Assembly (NCBI RefSeq): GCF_032813545.1
Contig: NZ_CP136520.1
Location: 4,210,001-4,274,000, forward strand
Origin: Nodosilinea sp. E11
Lineage (GTDB): Bacteria > Cyanobacteriota > Cyanobacteriia > Phormidesmidales > Phormidesmidaceae
Reading direction: 5' to 3'
DNA length: 64,000 nucleotides
The notes under the pieces are model-generated. The model made no database searches. It had not been told where the DNA came from and saw only the letters and a program-made list of their open reading frames with translations. Shown one piece after another: positions 37,376 through 46,722 of the stretch. The stretch's first letter is position 1. Every line of letters starts with the position of its first letter. The translations under genes and the position numbers were made by a program.

Positions 37376-37846
37376 TTAGATGGGTTTAGAGGTGAGCACT
37401 AGGCGCAGCTTGGCATGGATCAAGTTGAGCTGGGCCATACCCAAATCGACATCACCTTCGACTACAACCCCTGTATCTAGCAGGCGATCGAGCAATTCTA
37501 GAATGGTGGGGTTGGGGTTGTGTGCGCCGGGGTAGTAGCTGCCTTCCTTGGGTAGCAGCGTGCCAATTTCTCCCAAATCAATGTTGAGGTCAGCCGGGTC
37601 TACATCGAAAATCTCACACATCGCCACCACCTGCTCTTCCAGCTTGCGCAGGCTATCGGCGGCCCGTTCCAGGTCGTCGTCGTTGAGGTCGCCAGACTCC
37701 ATGCGGCGAATCACCTGGGCTTCCATTAGCTGGCGTACCAACTCAATGACGGTGAGCAACAGAGGTGCTAAGCCCGCATCAGTTTTGGCGGCAGGCTGTA
37801 GCGCTAGGCTGGGCAATAGATCTGGCTCGACATGTTCAGAAGTCAT
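37376..37846 (-). CDS. gvpK: gas vesicle protein GvpK
   Basis: This 156-residue protein contains the GvpK core: GLAPLLLTVIELVRQLMEAQ, MESGDLNDDDLERAADSLRKLEEQVVAMCEIF (shown span about residues 50-81) and the conserved DLNIDLGEIGTLLP. The C-terminus (PTILELLDRLLDTGVVVEGDVDLGMAQLNLIHAKLRLVL, about 115-153) resembles the GvpA fold, so the protein may combine a GvpK domain with a GvpA-like tail. GvpK is an accessory protein needed for gas vesicle assembly. ATG 37846 is used; a GTG lies two codons upstream. It is last in the leftward gvp operon. Confidence 0.93.
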   Translation of the reverse strand: MTSEHVEPDLLPSLALQPAAKTDAGLAPLLLTVIELVRQLMEAQVIRRMESGDLNDDDLERAADSLRKLEEQVVAMCEIFDVDPADLNIDLGEIGTLLPKEGSYYPGAHNPNPTILELLDRLLDTGVVVEGDVDLGMAQLNLIHAKLRLVLTSKPI

Positions 37847-37900
37847 AGCCACAGTCTAGTGCATCTCTCTGCATCTCTATAAAATGCCGATTTGGCCTAA

Positions 37901-38104: not shown

Positions 38105-38482
38105 TTACGTCATCAAAGTGGAATGGACAGACTCGCTTGTGGGTGCGGCCGAACGCAGCGCTTTGAGTTCAGCCTCCATGGTTTCGAGGCGGGCCTGGAG
38201 CTGTTGATTGGCCTCTAGCAGCTCGTTGGTGCGGCTGCTCAGGTAGGGGTCGCTCTCCCACCAGTTGATGCCGATCTCGCGGGCTTTGTCTACCGAGGAG
38301 ATGATCAGGCGAATGCGAATGCTCAGCAGCTCGGTGGAGCCTACGGAAACTGAGATATCGCCGGCAATTACGATGCCTTTATCGAGTACTCGCTCAATCA
38401 CATCTACCAGAGAAGATCCCTGGGTAGCGGTGGCCATGCTACGTCCCATTTGGGGGCGGGAGGGGGCGGTGGAAGTAGACAC
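38105..38482 (-). CDS. gvpJ: gas vesicle protein GvpJ
   Basis: This 125-residue protein has a 23-residue N-terminal extension, then the GvpA-like core SSLVDVIERVLDKGIVIAGD and the strand VGSTELLSIRIRLIISSVDKA. The J-specific GINWWESDPYLS and a coiled-coil tail (ELLEANQQLQARLETMEAEL) follow. GvpJ is a minor structural or nucleation protein related to GvpA. The start is a GTG (38482) with GAAGG upstream; internal ATGs at residues 12 and 16 are alternatives. It is 12 bp downstream of gvpN. Confidence 0.94.
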   Translation of the reverse strand: MSTSTAPSRPQMGRSMATATQGSSLVDVIERVLDKGIVIAGDISVSVGSTELLSIRIRLIISSVDKAREIGINWWESDPYLSSRTNELLEANQQLQARLETMEAELKALRSAAPTSESVHSTLMT

Positions 38483-38494
38483 AGTAGATTACCT

Positions 38495-39988
38495 TCAGTG
38501 AGAACTCAGTTGGTAGCCCTGTAGCTGGCCATCAGTTTCCTGCTTTTCTACCAGACCCTGATCGAGCATTGATTTGAGGGCGTTGACCACCTGAAAGCGA
38601 TTTAACCCCAGGGCGGTCTCGATCTTAACCAGAGAAACGGTACCTGTGGCATCTAAATAATCAAAAATGCGGGTTTCGACGTCGTCGCTGAGACTGGTTT
38701 CAGCCGCAGGGCTGGCTATGGTCGCAACTTCAGCCGCAATCTCTGGGCTAGGTTCTTCAACAGCCGCAACTTCAGCCGCAATCTCTGGGCTAGGTTCTTC
38801 AACAGCCGCAACCTCAGATGTAATCTCTGGGCTGGGTTCGTCAACAGCTGCAACTTCAGCCGCAATCTCTGGGCTGCGCTCTTCAACAGCTGATGGCTGA
38901 TCGGCTACTGCTGGGGCAACGGCCATTATCTGAGGCTCTGCTACAGAGGGCGTCAGGCTCTCCTCATCGATTGACGTTAGCGCTGGGGGTGCAATGTCGT
39001 CTAAAGGGGCAGCGGGTACGGTGTCTTCCTCTTCTTCGCCGTGGAGGCGGGCCGCAGGCTGAGGCTCAGACTTGAGGGTGAGGTCGTTGACCAGCTCTGC
39101 CTGCGACACCACAAAGCGGTTAAACAGGTTCCACAGGTGGCGGGTGGCGTCGGGAGAGGGCTCTTTAGAGCGGGCCAGTAGAATGTCGCTGCACAGGTCG
39201 CGGAAGTCGGCGTTTTCGGCCAGGGGCAAAATGCCGTGGTCGTGGCAGATGGTGGCGATCATCAGGCTGGGGCGCAGGCTAGAGACCATGTCTGGCGCGG
39301 CGGCGGCCTGAAATGCTTTGACCAACTGCACAATTTGCAGGGCGGCAGAGCCGTCGATGCCCACCTTCTGCACCAAGATCTGCTGCTGGGCCAGTTCATC
39401 TGGCTCGGGCATGTTGATGGTGATCAGGCGGTCTTGCAGGGCGTCTTGGGTGCCGTGAACGCCGCAGTATTCTTCGGGGTTAGAGGTGAGAATGGCGCGG
39501 AAGTGGGGGCTGACGCGGATGTATTCGGCCCGGTTGTTGCTGGGCGGCAGCACCAGCAGCTTTTCTTCGAGGGCCGACAGCAGCACGTTGTTGACCTCGG
39601 GGCGCGAGCGGTTGAACTCGTCGTACACCATGGTGAAGCCTTCGCGGCAGGCCAGGGTGAGGCGCGAGTCGATCCAGTTGTGGCGCAGCTCGTCTTCTAC
39701 TTTCACAACACTGTGAATGTAGTTGTCTACAACTTTCTTGCGGGTATAGCCCGACTGGTTACCGATTAGGTCTGAGGTTTTAAACTCGTCATCACCAAAC
39801 AGCAGCATGATCGGGCGGGCCAGCAGGTCAGCCAGGTGCAGGGCCAAAGTGGTTTTGCCGGTGCCAGCGGGGCCTTTGAGGTGGATAGAGTATCCCGATT
39901 GCAGGTACCGTAGGGCTCTGAGGGTGGTTCGCTCCAGGGTGGGGGTAGAGACGAAGTTGCGGGGGCGGGCTTGTAGAACAGTGTTCAC
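38495..39988 (-). CDS. gvpN: GvpN AAA+ ATPase with repeat linker and C-terminal winged-helix-like domain
   Basis: This 497-residue protein is much longer than usual GvpN. Residues 1 to about 300 are the MoxR/GvpN AAA+ domain: Walker A GPAGTGKT (39-46), Walker [10 protein letters not shown] (120-128) and sensor 1 ILTSNPEEY. An acidic linker follows that contains four 14-residue repeats of the type [14 protein letters not shown]. The last 66 residues form a predicted winged helix ([39 protein letters not shown]) that is closely similar to the C-terminus of the upstream GvpC-like protein. It starts with GTG and overlaps the gvpC-like stop by 4 bp. GvpN drives vesicle enlargement; the role of the tail is unknown. 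Confidence 0.93.
38723..38890. repeat. four 42-bp tandem repeats inside gvpN
   Basis: There are four imperfect tandem units of 42 bp, each encoding 14 residues (consensus [14 protein letters not shown]). The two leftmost copies are nearly identical in DNA, which implies recent duplication and possible length variation. The repeat keeps frame. Confidence 0.9.
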
Positions 39989-41205
39989 AGAACGGCTTCC
40001 TCTTGCACGAGATAGGTACGGTCTTGTTTGACGACGAGGTCTTTTTGAATCAGCGATCGCAGCGCATCCACGGCCTGAAACCGGTTGATGCTTAGTTCTG
40101 TCTCAAGTTCGCTGAGGCGGGCACCTTGGGCGAGGTGCAGGTAGTTGTACACTACCTCTTCTACGGAAGAAACTTCGGTAGAAGGGTCTGGAGCAACGGC
40201 TACTGTTGCCGGAGCCTCTGGAGCGGCTGGAGCCACCGGAGCCATGACAGTGGCCACCGGCGTAGAGCGGGCTACCGCTGCTGCGACTGGGGCATCCTTC
40301 ACTGGGGTAGGACGGGAAGCTAGTGCCTTGGAGGGCGCAGGTTTGGCCGTTGCGGCTGGGGCTGGTTTTGCGGCTGCTATCGGCCTGGGCTGAACGGTGG
40401 CCCGGGCGGGCGGCGAGGTGACAGCAGGCCGGGTGGCTACGGGCCGGGTGGCGGCGGGTTGCGTTACGGTGGCCCCACCCCAGACGAGGTGAGAGAGGTG
40501 CGATCGCTGAGCCTGGAGCTGGTGGCGAAAGTCGGCCAGCTCATCGAACATGGCATCTACGGAGGCGGTCAAGGCTTGGCGATCGCTCTGGCGCTGTGCT
40601 TGATTGACCACGGCTGCCTGTTGACGCACGGTGGTCAAATCCTTGAGCGTCGCCTGCACCTGGACCTGAAGATCTTCGACGTAGGCGGTCAGCGAGGGCA
40701 GAAGGTTGGCTCTGACCATAGCTTGATCTTGGCGGTAGCCCGCTAGCTTAACCGCCGTCTGGGCTTGGATGTTGGCTACTTGTTGCTGCACTTGGCGCAG
40801 CTCTTGGGCAATCTCTAGGCGCAGCTCGCTGACTTTCGCCTGAAGCACCTGGCAATCGTATTCGAGCTTTTGGCGAACTTCGGCGGCGCTAATTGCGCGA
40901 TCGGCTTGGTAGCTGGCCAGCAGCACATCGGCATCGGCCTGGAGCTGCTGAACATAGTCTTGGCGGGCCAGCTGTCGAGGCAAAATTTGGGCTTCGCGGT
41001 CTGCGGTGGTTTCGGCCAGCCACAGGGCGGTGTTGCTGCGCAGATCGGCCATCAGTTGATTGAGATCTTGGCGCAGTTGTACAGCATGGGTGAGTCGGTC
41101 GGCCTGCCAGCGCTCGAGGTCGGCAGAGACCTGATCGCGCCGGTTAACTACCTCACCCTGGCGCAGTTGTCGTGCGGCTTGCCACTGGTCATAAAGTGCT
41201 GTCAC
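39985..41205 (-). CDS. gvpC: GvpC-like gas vesicle protein with C-terminal winged-helix-like domain
   Basis: This 406-residue protein has an N-terminal 240 residues of amphipathic helix rich in Gln, Ala, Leu and Arg ([20 protein letters not shown] onward), similar in style to GvpC. I do not see exact 33-residue repeats. A Pro/Ala/Thr/Val-rich linker (about 243-345) is followed by a compact domain (346-406) with [20 protein letters not shown] and [14 protein letters not shown], the same domain as at the end of GvpN. The GTG start (41205) has GGGAG 11 nt upstream; the longer frame to 41385 is not protein-like. The gvpC name rests on position between gvpA and gvpN plus composition. Confidence 0.75.
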
Positions 41206-41506: not shown

Positions 41507-41725
41507 TTAGGCAGCGGGTACAGCGGCTTGAGCGGTCAGGCCAACGGCTTCGGCGTACTTGAGGTAGGTATCGACGGAGGCAATCACGATACGAGCTTCA
41601 ATGGCCAGCAGCTCAATACCGACTAGAGAAACACGGACCCAAGCATCAACAACGATGCCTTTGTCCAAAATGCGATCGACAACTTCAGCCAAGCTAGAGG
41701 AAGAGTTTACTTTTTCAACAGCCAT
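41507..41725 (-). CDS. gvpA: major gas vesicle structural protein GvpA
   Basis: This 72-residue protein has the highly conserved GvpA sequence: [20 protein letters not shown], then [20 protein letters not shown] and [21 protein letters not shown]. It forms the ribbed hydrophobic wall of gas vesicles. Only one copy is present here, while many cyanobacteria have tandem copies. AGGGG lies upstream of the ATG at 41725. It is first in the leftward gvpA-gvpC-gvpN-gvpJ-orf-gvpK operon. Confidence 0.98.
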
Positions 41726-42232
41726 GGTTTTGAACCCCTAAAACATTTGATGTGTTCAATGAAACTACAAGGAAGATTTGCTTTAGTGCATCTAGCTGCT
41801 ACTGCAAAGGGGCGGTAGAAACAGACTCAGCGCGTAGGGCTTATTCCTTGCACATTTGTAGTCTGCCCATTTGGTTCAGACCGCTCACAATTTAGAAAAA
41901 ATTAGTTTATGTATTGTTACTTGCGGTATGTGCGATTGGCGACTTGGGGCTGAAGGGCACTGCACGGGCTGGGGCTGTGCTACGCCGCGTTAAGTCAGTA
42001 TCAGGAGGCGATTCAGGCATTTCGTCGGGCGTTAGTAGTGCAGCCCTATGCGTTGACGAACCAGCGGCTGCTTTTAGAGTGCACGGCCCGGCTGAGCTGA
42101 GGTTAAGCCTTGACTACATGGCCTAGGGTGCTGTGCTGATCGATGATGGGTGAGCGAAAAGTGGGCTGACCCAGGGCTGTCAATGAGTTAGCTAGCCACT
42201 ATTATGGGGTTTCAAAGCCGCCAATCCCCCTA
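41726..42232. other. 507-bp region between gvpA and the glutamine synthetase-like gene
   Basis: It contains the gvpA promoter and leader (about 41726-41920, AT-rich, elements not resolved) and a TPR gene remnant at 41954-42100. The rest appears non-coding. Confidence 0.5.
41954..42100 (+). pseudogene. remnant of a TPR-repeat gene (3' end only)
   Basis: A 48-codon open stretch without a start codon reads GLGLCYAALSQYQEAIQAFR then RALVVQP, an excellent single tetratricopeptide repeat, and ends in a helix and TGA at 42098-42100. A stop codon (TGA 41951-41953) closes it upstream. It looks like the C-terminal end of a decayed TPR protein gene left beside the gvp cluster. Confidence 0.7.
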
Positions 42233-45658: not shown

Positions 45659-46393
45659 ATGGCTGATCGCTATTATTTATATGGTATTTTTCCGGCCCCT
45701 GGCCCAGCTAATCTGCCCCTTGAGGGCTTAGATGCCCAGGTGGTTCAGACCCACAACCTGGGCGACTTCACCTTTTTGTACTCGGTTGCTTGCCAAAAGC
45801 GCTATTTGTCTAGCCGCAAAAACCTGCTGGGCCACGAAAAGGTGCTAGAAGCCGCCATGGAGCAAGGCCATCGCACCCTGCTACCGCTCCAGTTTGGGCT
45901 GATTGTCGATAGCTGGGAACAGGTACAAGAAGACCTCGTCGCCCCCCACGCGGACGACCTAGCCCAGCTCTTTGAGCGCCTCGACGGCTGCCGAGAGGTG
46001 AGTATTAAAGTGCAGTGGGAGCCTTCTACGGAGTTAGAACTGATGATGGCTGAAAACGCTGACCTGCGGGCCCAGCGCGACCAGCTCGAAGGCACCCAGC
46101 TCGGCATGGAGCAGGTGATTTTCATTGGTCAACAGATTGAGGCGGCCCTAGAGGAGCGCCAGCAGGGCATTGTCGACCAATTTCGCCAGGCCCTAACGCC
46201 GCTTGCCAAAGACGTGCTAGAAAACGCTCCGCAAACAGATGTGATGATTTACAACGCCGCTTACCTGATTCCCTGGGAGAGTGAGGCGGCATTTAGTGAG
46301 GCTGTGACCGCTGTCGACAGCGGGTTTGGCGATCGCCTGCGCATTCGCTACAACAACTTTACCGCCCCCTACAACTTCGCCCAGCTCAATTAA
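45659..46393 (+). CDS. gvpF: gas vesicle protein GvpF/GvpL
   Basis: This 244-residue protein starts MADRYYLYGIFPAPGP, followed by the typical N-terminal ferredoxin-like half (SVACQKRYLSSRKNLLGHEKVLEAAMEQGHRTLLPLQFG, about residues 42-80) and a helical second half with LMMAENADLRAQRDQLEG, ending in NYNFTAP-like RIRYNNFTAPYNFAQL. GvpF is an accessory protein that contacts GvpA and is incorporated in the vesicle. Many cyanobacteria have two or three GvpF/L paralogues; only one is in this window. It is on the opposite strand from gvpA-K and about 3.9 kb away. Confidence 0.94.
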   Translation: MADRYYLYGIFPAPGPANLPLEGLDAQVVQTHNLGDFTFLYSVACQKRYLSSRKNLLGHEKVLEAAMEQGHRTLLPLQFGLIVDSWEQVQEDLVAPHADDLAQLFERLDGCREVSIKVQWEPSTELELMMAENADLRAQRDQLEGTQLGMEQVIFIGQQIEAALEERQQGIVDQFRQALTPLAKDVLENAPQTDVMIYNAAYLIPWESEAAFSEAVTAVDSGFGDRLRIRYNNFTAPYNFAQLN

Positions 46394-46402
46394 TTGACGG
46401 TG

Positions 46403-46454
46403 CAAAATGTAAGGTTTAGCGGTCAGTCCCTGGCCCTAGTCTTTACATTTTGCT
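46403..46454 (+). promoter_or_regulatory. stem-loop between gvpF and gvpG
   Basis: GCAAAATGTAA(G) pairs with (C)TTTACATTTTGC, 12 of 13 positions, around a loop of about 26 nt. The structure ends 28 bp before the gvpG start. It may be an attenuator or an mRNA processing/stability element. Confidence 0.5.
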
Positions 46455-46482
46455 GCTTGCCCCCTTATATCTCTTTGCTTCT

Positions 46483-46722
46483 ATGCTGCTAAAACTTCTC
46501 TTTGCTCCAGTGCTTGGCCCCATTGAAGGTGTCAGCTGGGTTGCCAACAAACTCCTAGAGCAGGCCGACGTCTCTACCAACGACCTAGAGAGCCTGCAAA
46601 AACAGCTGCTGGCGCTGCAACTTGCCTTTGATATGGGTGAGCTGTCGGAAGAAGACTTTGAAGCTCAAGAGGAAGAAATTCTCATGGCCATACAGGCCGC
46701 TGAGGATGAAGAAGATGATTGA
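46483..46722 (+). CDS. gvpG: gas vesicle protein GvpG
   Basis: This 79-residue protein starts MLLKLLFAPVLGPIEGVSWV, the usual GvpG N-terminus, and then has an acidic helical body (LQKQLLALQLAFDMGELSEE) and a highly acidic tail (AAEDEEDD). It is an accessory protein of gas vesicle assembly. The ATG at 46483 is chosen by family; the frame is open back to a TTG at 46450 inside the upstream stem-loop. It is 89 bp after gvpF. The tRNA gene on the other strand starts 8 bp beyond its stop. Confidence 0.92.
   Translation: MLLKLLFAPVLGPIEGVSWVANKLLEQADVSTNDLESLQKQLLALQLAFDMGELSEEDFEAQEEEILMAIQAAEDEEDD

Follow-up and report, generated by a model that had tools for sequence, protein, structure and literature searches.

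Similarity between the C-terminal ends of the gas vesicle coat protein GvpC and the AAA+ ATPase GvpN has been partly noticed before. In PMC5259702 (2017), the C-terminus of the GvpC-40 form of benthic Planktothrix resembles 60 amino acids (aa) of the GvpC of Geitlerinema PCC 7407, and a 28-aa stretch of it is 64% identical to Planktothrix GvpN; the non-planktic strains treated there all had the larger GvpC-40, and the planktic strains a shorter GvpC. Anabaena GvpN is an active ATPase (PMC7204071), and for haloarchaea PMC9372576 has the C-terminal part of GvpC bound by GvpN, GvpO, GvpF, GvpH, GvpI and GvpL, and GvpN binding to GvpL. We examined the gas vesicle genes within a 64,000-nucleotide stretch of the Nodosilinea sp. 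E11 genome (contig NZ_CP136520.1, forward-strand positions 4,210,001 to 4,274,000; hereafter the window, to which coordinates refer), where a GvpC-like protein and GvpN each end in a tail of about 60 residues. The closest known counterpart of the window tails is this C-terminal segment of about 60 aa in Planktothrix GvpC-40 and the Geitlerinema protein; the part of PMC5259702 covered here contains no analysis of the fold, function, wider distribution, selection or independent loss of that segment. Added here are a predicted fold, the wide occurrence, the selection and the independent absence of the tails. No naming of a winged helix in GvpC or GvpN was found in the literature searched, which left preprints and most subscription journals outside.

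The tail of the GvpC-like protein (P0003) and that of GvpN (P0004) were aligned by BLASTP with 20 of 48 positions identical (42% over 48 aa; E 2e-12 for the single comparison). A profile made from the two sequences matched, among window open reading frames (ORFs) of at least 50 aa, these two tails only, and either tail used as a query against its own 6.1 Mb genome returned only the pair, with one extra match at E 1.25. The parts of the two genes are as follows.

39985 to 41205, minus strand: gvpC-like gene of 406 aa with a GTG start, lying between gvpA (directly upstream) and gvpN.
40477 to 41205, minus strand: GvpC-like body, residues 1–243, with VWG at its end; probably alpha-helical.
40174 to 40476, minus strand: Pro/Ala-rich basic linker of the GvpC-like protein, residues 244–344, net charge +6 (measured over 244–345).
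39988 to 40173, minus strand: C-terminal winged-helix tail of the GvpC-like protein (P0003), residues 345–406, as predicted by AlphaFold2 and with dN/dS determined.
39985 to 39988, minus strand: GTGA overlap of 4 nt between the gvpC stop and the gvpN start, suggesting translational coupling.
38495 to 39988, minus strand: gvpN gene, 497 aa, GTG start, matching TIGR02640.
39170 to 39955, minus strand: AAA+ domain of GvpN, from the TIGR02640 match.
38693 to 39121, minus strand: acidic linker of GvpN, residues 290–432, net charge -28 (measured over 290–433).
38723 to 38890, minus strand: four 42-bp (14-aa) tandem repeats within the GvpN linker.
38498 to 38692, minus strand: C-terminal winged-helix tail of GvpN (P0004), residues 433–497, as predicted by AlphaFold2 and with dN/dS determined.

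The tail pair in the window is real and conserved, and many filamentous cyanobacteria have this predicted winged-helix ending on both proteins. A sequence-only reading of this DNA had described two adjacent, translationally coupled genes, each ending in a tail of some 60 residues, one domain carried by both proteins, with repeats in one of the linkers and a winged-helix-like form; the sequence bears out the arrangement, the similarity of the tails and the repeats of the GvpN linker, and AlphaFold2, Foldseek and VIA-align agree on the form. The reading also proposed that the domain be sought in Leptolyngbya-type relatives, where we found it conserved and in frame. A frameshift or read-through artefact was ruled out, since dozens of loci have conserved tails that keep the reading frame; the sole locus with a GvpN tail split over two frames (L014) lies on a contig of a metagenome-assembled genome with a stated coverage of 2.9.

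GvpN scored 360.8 bits against TIGR02640 (equivalog cut-off 266.8) and is accordingly a member of that family. The 33-residue repeat of PF01304 was matched neither by the window GvpC-like protein nor elsewhere in its genome. The protein was taken as GvpC because of its position between gvpA and gvpN, the homology of its body, and three tail-bearing ORFs elsewhere (G129, G060 and G286) in which a PF01304 repeat above cut-off shares the open frame with the tail; its place and tail are as in those proteins, although the repeat of G286 barely exceeds the cut-off (21.2 versus 21 bits). At E < 1e-3 the window body matched the bodies of 42 of the 52 other tail-bearing proteins, including that of L016 (E 5e-8), whose own PF01304 repeat reaches 20.3 versus 21 bits. 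Against the assignment, six of the remaining ten bodies matched only weakly (E 0.002–0.3), and the match was not significant (E 2.6–6.3) for four Nostoc ORFs (L060, L066, L068, L074), which we called GvpC because they lie behind gvpA, carry the tail and have a body that ends in VWG.

AlphaFold2 modeled both tails as helix-helix-helix-strand-strand, with a mean pLDDT of 89.6 for the GvpC tail (56-row alignment) and 93.6 for the GvpN tail (34-row alignment). Winged-helix proteins made up the majority of Foldseek matches for both; the best was at E 9.4e-3 for the GvpC tail and, for the GvpN tail, the Z-alpha domain of PKZ (E 4.6e-4, TM 0.88). Re-examination of Foldseek's own matches by VIA-align 2 gave a best Z of 11.1 for the GvpC tail (7bzh, 59 residues, 1.4 A; many tied rows) and of 12.8 for the GvpN tail (5j6x, 64 residues, 1.5 A; many rows tied within Z 1). 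Three helices and a beta-hairpin wing aligned structurally with solved winged helices along most of the domain, and the winged-helix fold of both tails is, as a prediction, secure. No named regulator family can be assigned securely: P0003 fell below the Pfam gathering cut-off for TrmB (21.0 versus 25.6 bits) and P0004 below that for MarR_2 (26.4 versus 27 bits), while the tail of one relative (L024) exceeded the TrmB cut-off with 26.0 bits and 46 of the 56 rows of the tail alignment A1 matched TrmB at E <= 0.01. The winged helices of MarR, TrmB, IclR and CodY type have the same fold as the tails (Z about 9.5–12 among the matches listed) and match them weakly in sequence; in contrast to these, the window tails miss the Pfam cut-offs, the predicted domain is without extra dimerisation helices, and the tails form the C-terminus of a coat protein and of an AAA+ ATPase.

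The Z-alpha domains of PKZ and ADAR1 are of equal minimal size, and the GvpN tail has its best single fold match among them (5j6x), but the Asn, Arg and Tyr of their third helix, which contact Z-form nucleic acid, are replaced in the tails by V, D/N and R/K. C-terminal winged helices also occur on assembly and motor proteins as docking or targeting modules, as in the broken-winged helix of CdvB and the gamma domain of FtsK; the former was matched at E 0.046 only and the latter was one fold match among many, and homology is not claimed for either.

Relatives were collected by a scan of genome contigs, of which the best 80 of 119 loci, all cyanobacterial by title, were used; this set is biased toward the query. 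Among these 80, a GvpN tail was present in 65, a GvpC-type tail in 53 and both in 46. Nineteen loci had the GvpN tail only: in four the contig starts at gvpN (L001, L003, L006, L011), nine are Nostoc-type loci with a second tail match in the genome outside the locus or at its edge, one (L057) belongs to a genome that also holds a two-tail cluster, and five have a single match in the genome (L055, L056, L059, L062, L073). In seven loci the ORF set held a tail on GvpC but none on GvpN; six were counted as GvpC-only, the GvpC tail being the sole match in their genomes (L029, L033, L040, L046, L052, L053), and the seventh is the frameshifted L014. No tail match was obtained in 8 of 29 genomes searched. 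Tails were missing from GvpN of Anabaena sp. 54 (L078) and Dolichospermum circinale (L080), from several Nostoc and Calothrix genomes (L058, L061, L064, L065, L067) and from some bloom-forming relatives.

An even sample of 292 genomes of the phylum held GvpN at 47 places in 46 genomes, and 25 of the 47 loci bear a GvpN tail; one of these (G149) is degenerate, the tail remnant lying past the GvpN stop with two stops (E 1.6e-6). The sequence-only reading had supposed that known GvpC and GvpN lack such a domain; that was wrong, both from this count and from the similarity reported in PMC5259702. When 41 strong tail matches and the G149 remnant were cross-matched to the GvpN places, 17 loci had both tails, 8 the GvpN tail only, none the GvpC tail only, and 22 none at the thresholds used, i.e., none at that level of match (Fisher's test, p = 4e-7, ignoring kinship). 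The second tail was on the adjacent upstream ORF in 15 of the 17 two-tail loci and on an ORF 6.6–6.9 kb away in the other two (G125 and G278), where it belongs to a GvpC-like ORF directly behind gvpA; for G125 this arrangement was taken from L106 (the similar L068 was also read), and for G278 it follows by analogy, the tail coordinates being as in the genome of L072, where gvpA is close to the locus end. The pair therefore survives operon rearrangement. Among the matches listed for the 292 genomes, all 41 at E <= 6e-14 lay in gvp loci and none fell between 6e-14 and 3e-8; weaker matches were mainly ORFs of about 130–200 aa from one family, of which L109 looks, by eye, to be of DtxR/MntR type. 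A general cyanobacterial domain was thus rejected as an explanation, the strong matches among those listed being confined to gvp loci.

The tree of the tails grouped them by protein and not by species, with 4 label changes on 116 rows versus 38.6 in shuffles (0 of 500 as low); it was built from 66 columns, with little resolution, many open forks and unsettled bootstrap, and without the GvpC tail of L066. Recent duplication inside the operon was rejected on this clustering. Twelve GvpN rows stood on the GvpC side, namely L049, L051 and ten rows forming a Stenomitos/Scytolyngbya-type group; tails may therefore have been replaced once or more, and the tree argues for an old shared origin followed by such replacement.

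In genus g50, which is probably Planktothrix, 8 of 10 genomes had either two or three tail matches, of which one, going by position, was upstream of gvpN, and two (G255 and G321) had GvpN-tail matches only. The GvpC body is present in G255, where its frame ends within the linker (247-aa open frame versus 347 in G157) and the GvpN tail is kept. The pattern agrees with PMC5259702, where planktic strains have the short GvpC and non-planktic ones GvpC-40. The gvpA–gvpC unit is repeated in G255 (L116, 1989–4768), the second gvpC being shorter, with a seeming internal deletion, and also tail-less.

Selection was compared within the close clade of the window. For GvpN (13 sequences) the median dN/dS was 0.028 in the AAA+ domain, 0.357 in the linker and 0.100 in the tail; for GvpC (10 sequences) it was 0.108 in the body, 0.222 in the linker and 0.059 in the tail. 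Median aa identity was higher in the GvpC tail (0.95) than in the GvpC body (0.85), with 0.57 in the linker, and lower in the GvpN tail (82%) than in the AAA+ domain (97%), with 0.35 in the linker. Purifying selection thus acts on both tails while the linkers drift. All but two of 65 GvpN linkers had a net negative charge (63 of 65; median -15). Of 50 GvpC linkers, 36 were net positive, 3 neutral and 11 negative (median +4), no value being available for L026, L028 and L032, which have no VWG landmark. The GvpN linker of L013 (6001–8202) is expanded to 395 residues with a net charge of -101.

We propose, with a confidence that stays somewhat short of even, that the tail is a winged-helix handle for protein docking which brings GvpC and GvpN to a common partner and which is accessory. 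Each protein would carry one copy of the same minimal winged helix on a long flexible linker, used for protein docking rather than for the DNA reading of a transcription factor; the coat protein and the ATPase would dock on one partner, most likely an assembly component, for instance the GvpF/L platform or the growing-rib site; and common docking would place shell growth and coating together, so that the handle might tune where or when these occur and not whether vesicles form. Docking is favoured because the domain is common to just two proteins, surface-type residues are conserved, the linkers are flexible, and the haloarchaeal interaction map (PMC9372576) points the same way. The handle is taken as accessory because lineages without the tail still have gas vesicles, and G255, which lacks the GvpC tail and keeps that of GvpN, was counted toward dispensability, as was the finding of PMC5259702 that a benthic GvpC-40 strain and a planktic short-GvpC strain did not differ in the abundance or size of their aerotopes. 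A shared docking role of the two tails, as the sequence-only reading suggested, is plausible; its suggestion that GvpN and GvpC tether each other is, as the sole role, weakened by the genomes with one tail only.

Residues were counted in A1, which was thinned by hand from 70 non-redundant rows to 54 and, with P0003 and P0004, holds 56 (L047 and L028 of GvpN and L066 and L074 of GvpC were left out before thinning). In the 28 GvpC tails R31 and an acidic residue at position 36 were invariant (28/28 each), and R39, D51 and R52 were each kept in 27. Position 32, a DNA-facing Lys in the Z-alpha structure, is hydrophobic in 27 of the 28; this looks more like a protein interface.

Several points weigh against the docking proposal, and some of them favour the view, which we consider unlikely, that the tails bind nucleic acid, either holding vesicles or the assembly machinery at the nucleoid or feeding the vesicle state back on gvp transcription. 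Many of the nearest matches, in sequence as in fold, bind DNA or RNA, and many nucleic-acid-binding winged helices are among the closest solved structures. Basic residues of the third helix (R31, R39) and of the R50-D51-R52 wing are conserved in GvpC tails as in DNA binders, and R31 is kept in 26 of 28 GvpN tails. The CodY helix aligns well, with an Arg at the aligned place that is presumably critical for DNA. The net charges of the window tails are -4 and -5, and many GvpC tails outside the window clade are at +1 to +4. The acidic residue at position 36 is a feature of GvpC tails only: of the 28 GvpN tails 39% have one, and Asn is the commonest residue there (13). The tails of all six GvpN-only loci tested scored 42.7–55.8 bits, whereas no paired GvpN tail scored under 64.2; at these loci the GvpN tail may thus dock elsewhere. 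The six are from distant lineages (one, L057, shares its genome with a two-tail cluster), and the scoring is confounded by phylogeny and by the profiles, which were built from paired rows and favour them (the C profile was made without L066, L068 and L074). Three further points concern what the proposal builds on: the partner is a candidate, the haloarchaeal GvpC C-terminus may be unrelated to the tail, and dispensability is read from other lineages rather than from a deletion.

DNA binding is nevertheless judged the less likely because of the acidic residue at 36 and the mostly hydrophobic one at 32 on the putative reading face of GvpC tails, the acidic GvpN linkers, and the lack of a cross-clade operator; the negative window tails also speak against it. 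In the operator search, TAACAA...TTGTGA was found upstream of gvpA in the window and in 8 of 69 other loci, all close relatives, and no operator was common across clades, although fixed patterns would miss diverged sites. The region upstream of gvpA (window 41726–42025) carries the blocks TAACAAT...TTGTGA and GGGCAGACTACAAATGTGC, each in 9 of 70 upstream regions and only in the clade of the window or adjoining it; they are not evidence for DNA binding. A broader form of the idea, that the vesicle coat and the GvpN ring bear tethered nucleic-acid-binding winged helices serving as a nucleoid hold or as gvp feedback in mat-, soil- and hormogonium-type cyanobacteria, and that planktonic lineages shed this link to float freely, seems improbable.

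We also give a low probability to direct pairing of the GvpN tail with the GvpC tail, a heterotypic winged-helix pair that would recruit the ATPase to the coat with help from the linker charges. The presence of both tails in one operon would suit it, as would the binding of GvpN to the haloarchaeal GvpC C-terminus (PMC9372576) and the charges themselves: +6 for GvpC and -28 for GvpN in the window, GvpC positive with GvpN negative in 29 of 43 pairs, and the GvpC linker the more positive in 42 of 43. The opposite charges are suggestive only, because GvpN linkers are acidic also at loci without a GvpC tail. Several genomes keep the GvpN tail alone, and in the six GvpC-only genomes five of the tails scored 97.5–114.9 bits, within the paired range (minimum 92.7), with L053 at 80.9. 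Since either tail occurs without the other, the tails argue against an obligate GvpC:GvpN lock, and the common third partner of the docking proposal is favoured.

Doubtful to a slightly greater degree is the idea that GvpC tails cross-link vesicles (aerotope packing) or anchor them to a cell structure in mat or motile-filament life, with the GvpN tail a related copy having the same target. The distribution of GvpC-40 among Planktothrix strains (PMC5259702) and the tail-less GvpN of Anabaena sp. 54 and D. circinale are in its favour; against it, aerotope abundance and size were alike in one benthic GvpC-40 strain and one planktic short-GvpC strain in the same paper, and because the several Nostoc and Calothrix genomes named above are also tail-less, life style maps uncleanly to the tail. 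A passive end-cap, which would aid solubility or shield against proteolysis without binding any particular partner, would accommodate the repeated absence and the very variable linkers but is very improbable given the near-invariant polar residues, the low dN/dS and a GvpC tail held more tightly than the GvpC body.

A compact, independently folding handle common to both proteins would offer a direct, testable entry point to the action of GvpN and to the delivery of GvpC to the growing shell. Absence of the tail where gas vesicle genes are kept would set the core of assembly apart from a layer of positioning or regulation that can be dispensed with, and engineered vesicles could use the handle as a natural docking tag.

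The gas vesicle genes on the minus strand of the window are gvpA, the GvpC-like gene, gvpN, gvpK and a gvpJ-like gene; those on the plus strand, gvpF/L and gvpG, are some 4 kb away from gvpA. The neighbouring genes, each identified by a family profile match, are:

41507 to 41725, minus strand: gvpA.
38105 to 38482, minus strand: gvpJ-like gene.
37376 to 37852, minus strand: gvpK with a C-terminal Gas_vesicle (PF00741) segment.
45659 to 46393, plus strand: gvpF/L, a candidate partner.
46450 to 46722, plus strand: gvpG.

A second GvpL/GvpF homologue is present in the same genome about 1.5 Mb from the gvp cluster (G000:C7:2700785-2701447, plus strand). The GvpK ORF continues into the Gas_vesicle segment, which is GvpA/J-like, and by eye a similar sequence ends the Nostoc GvpK of L068. 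The gvp operon of L068 (6001–12723), also read by eye, is rearranged in the order N-J-K-F, a CDC48-like double AAA+ protein, a second, short GvpF/L-like protein, A and C; the extra AAA+ protein within the operon stands out.

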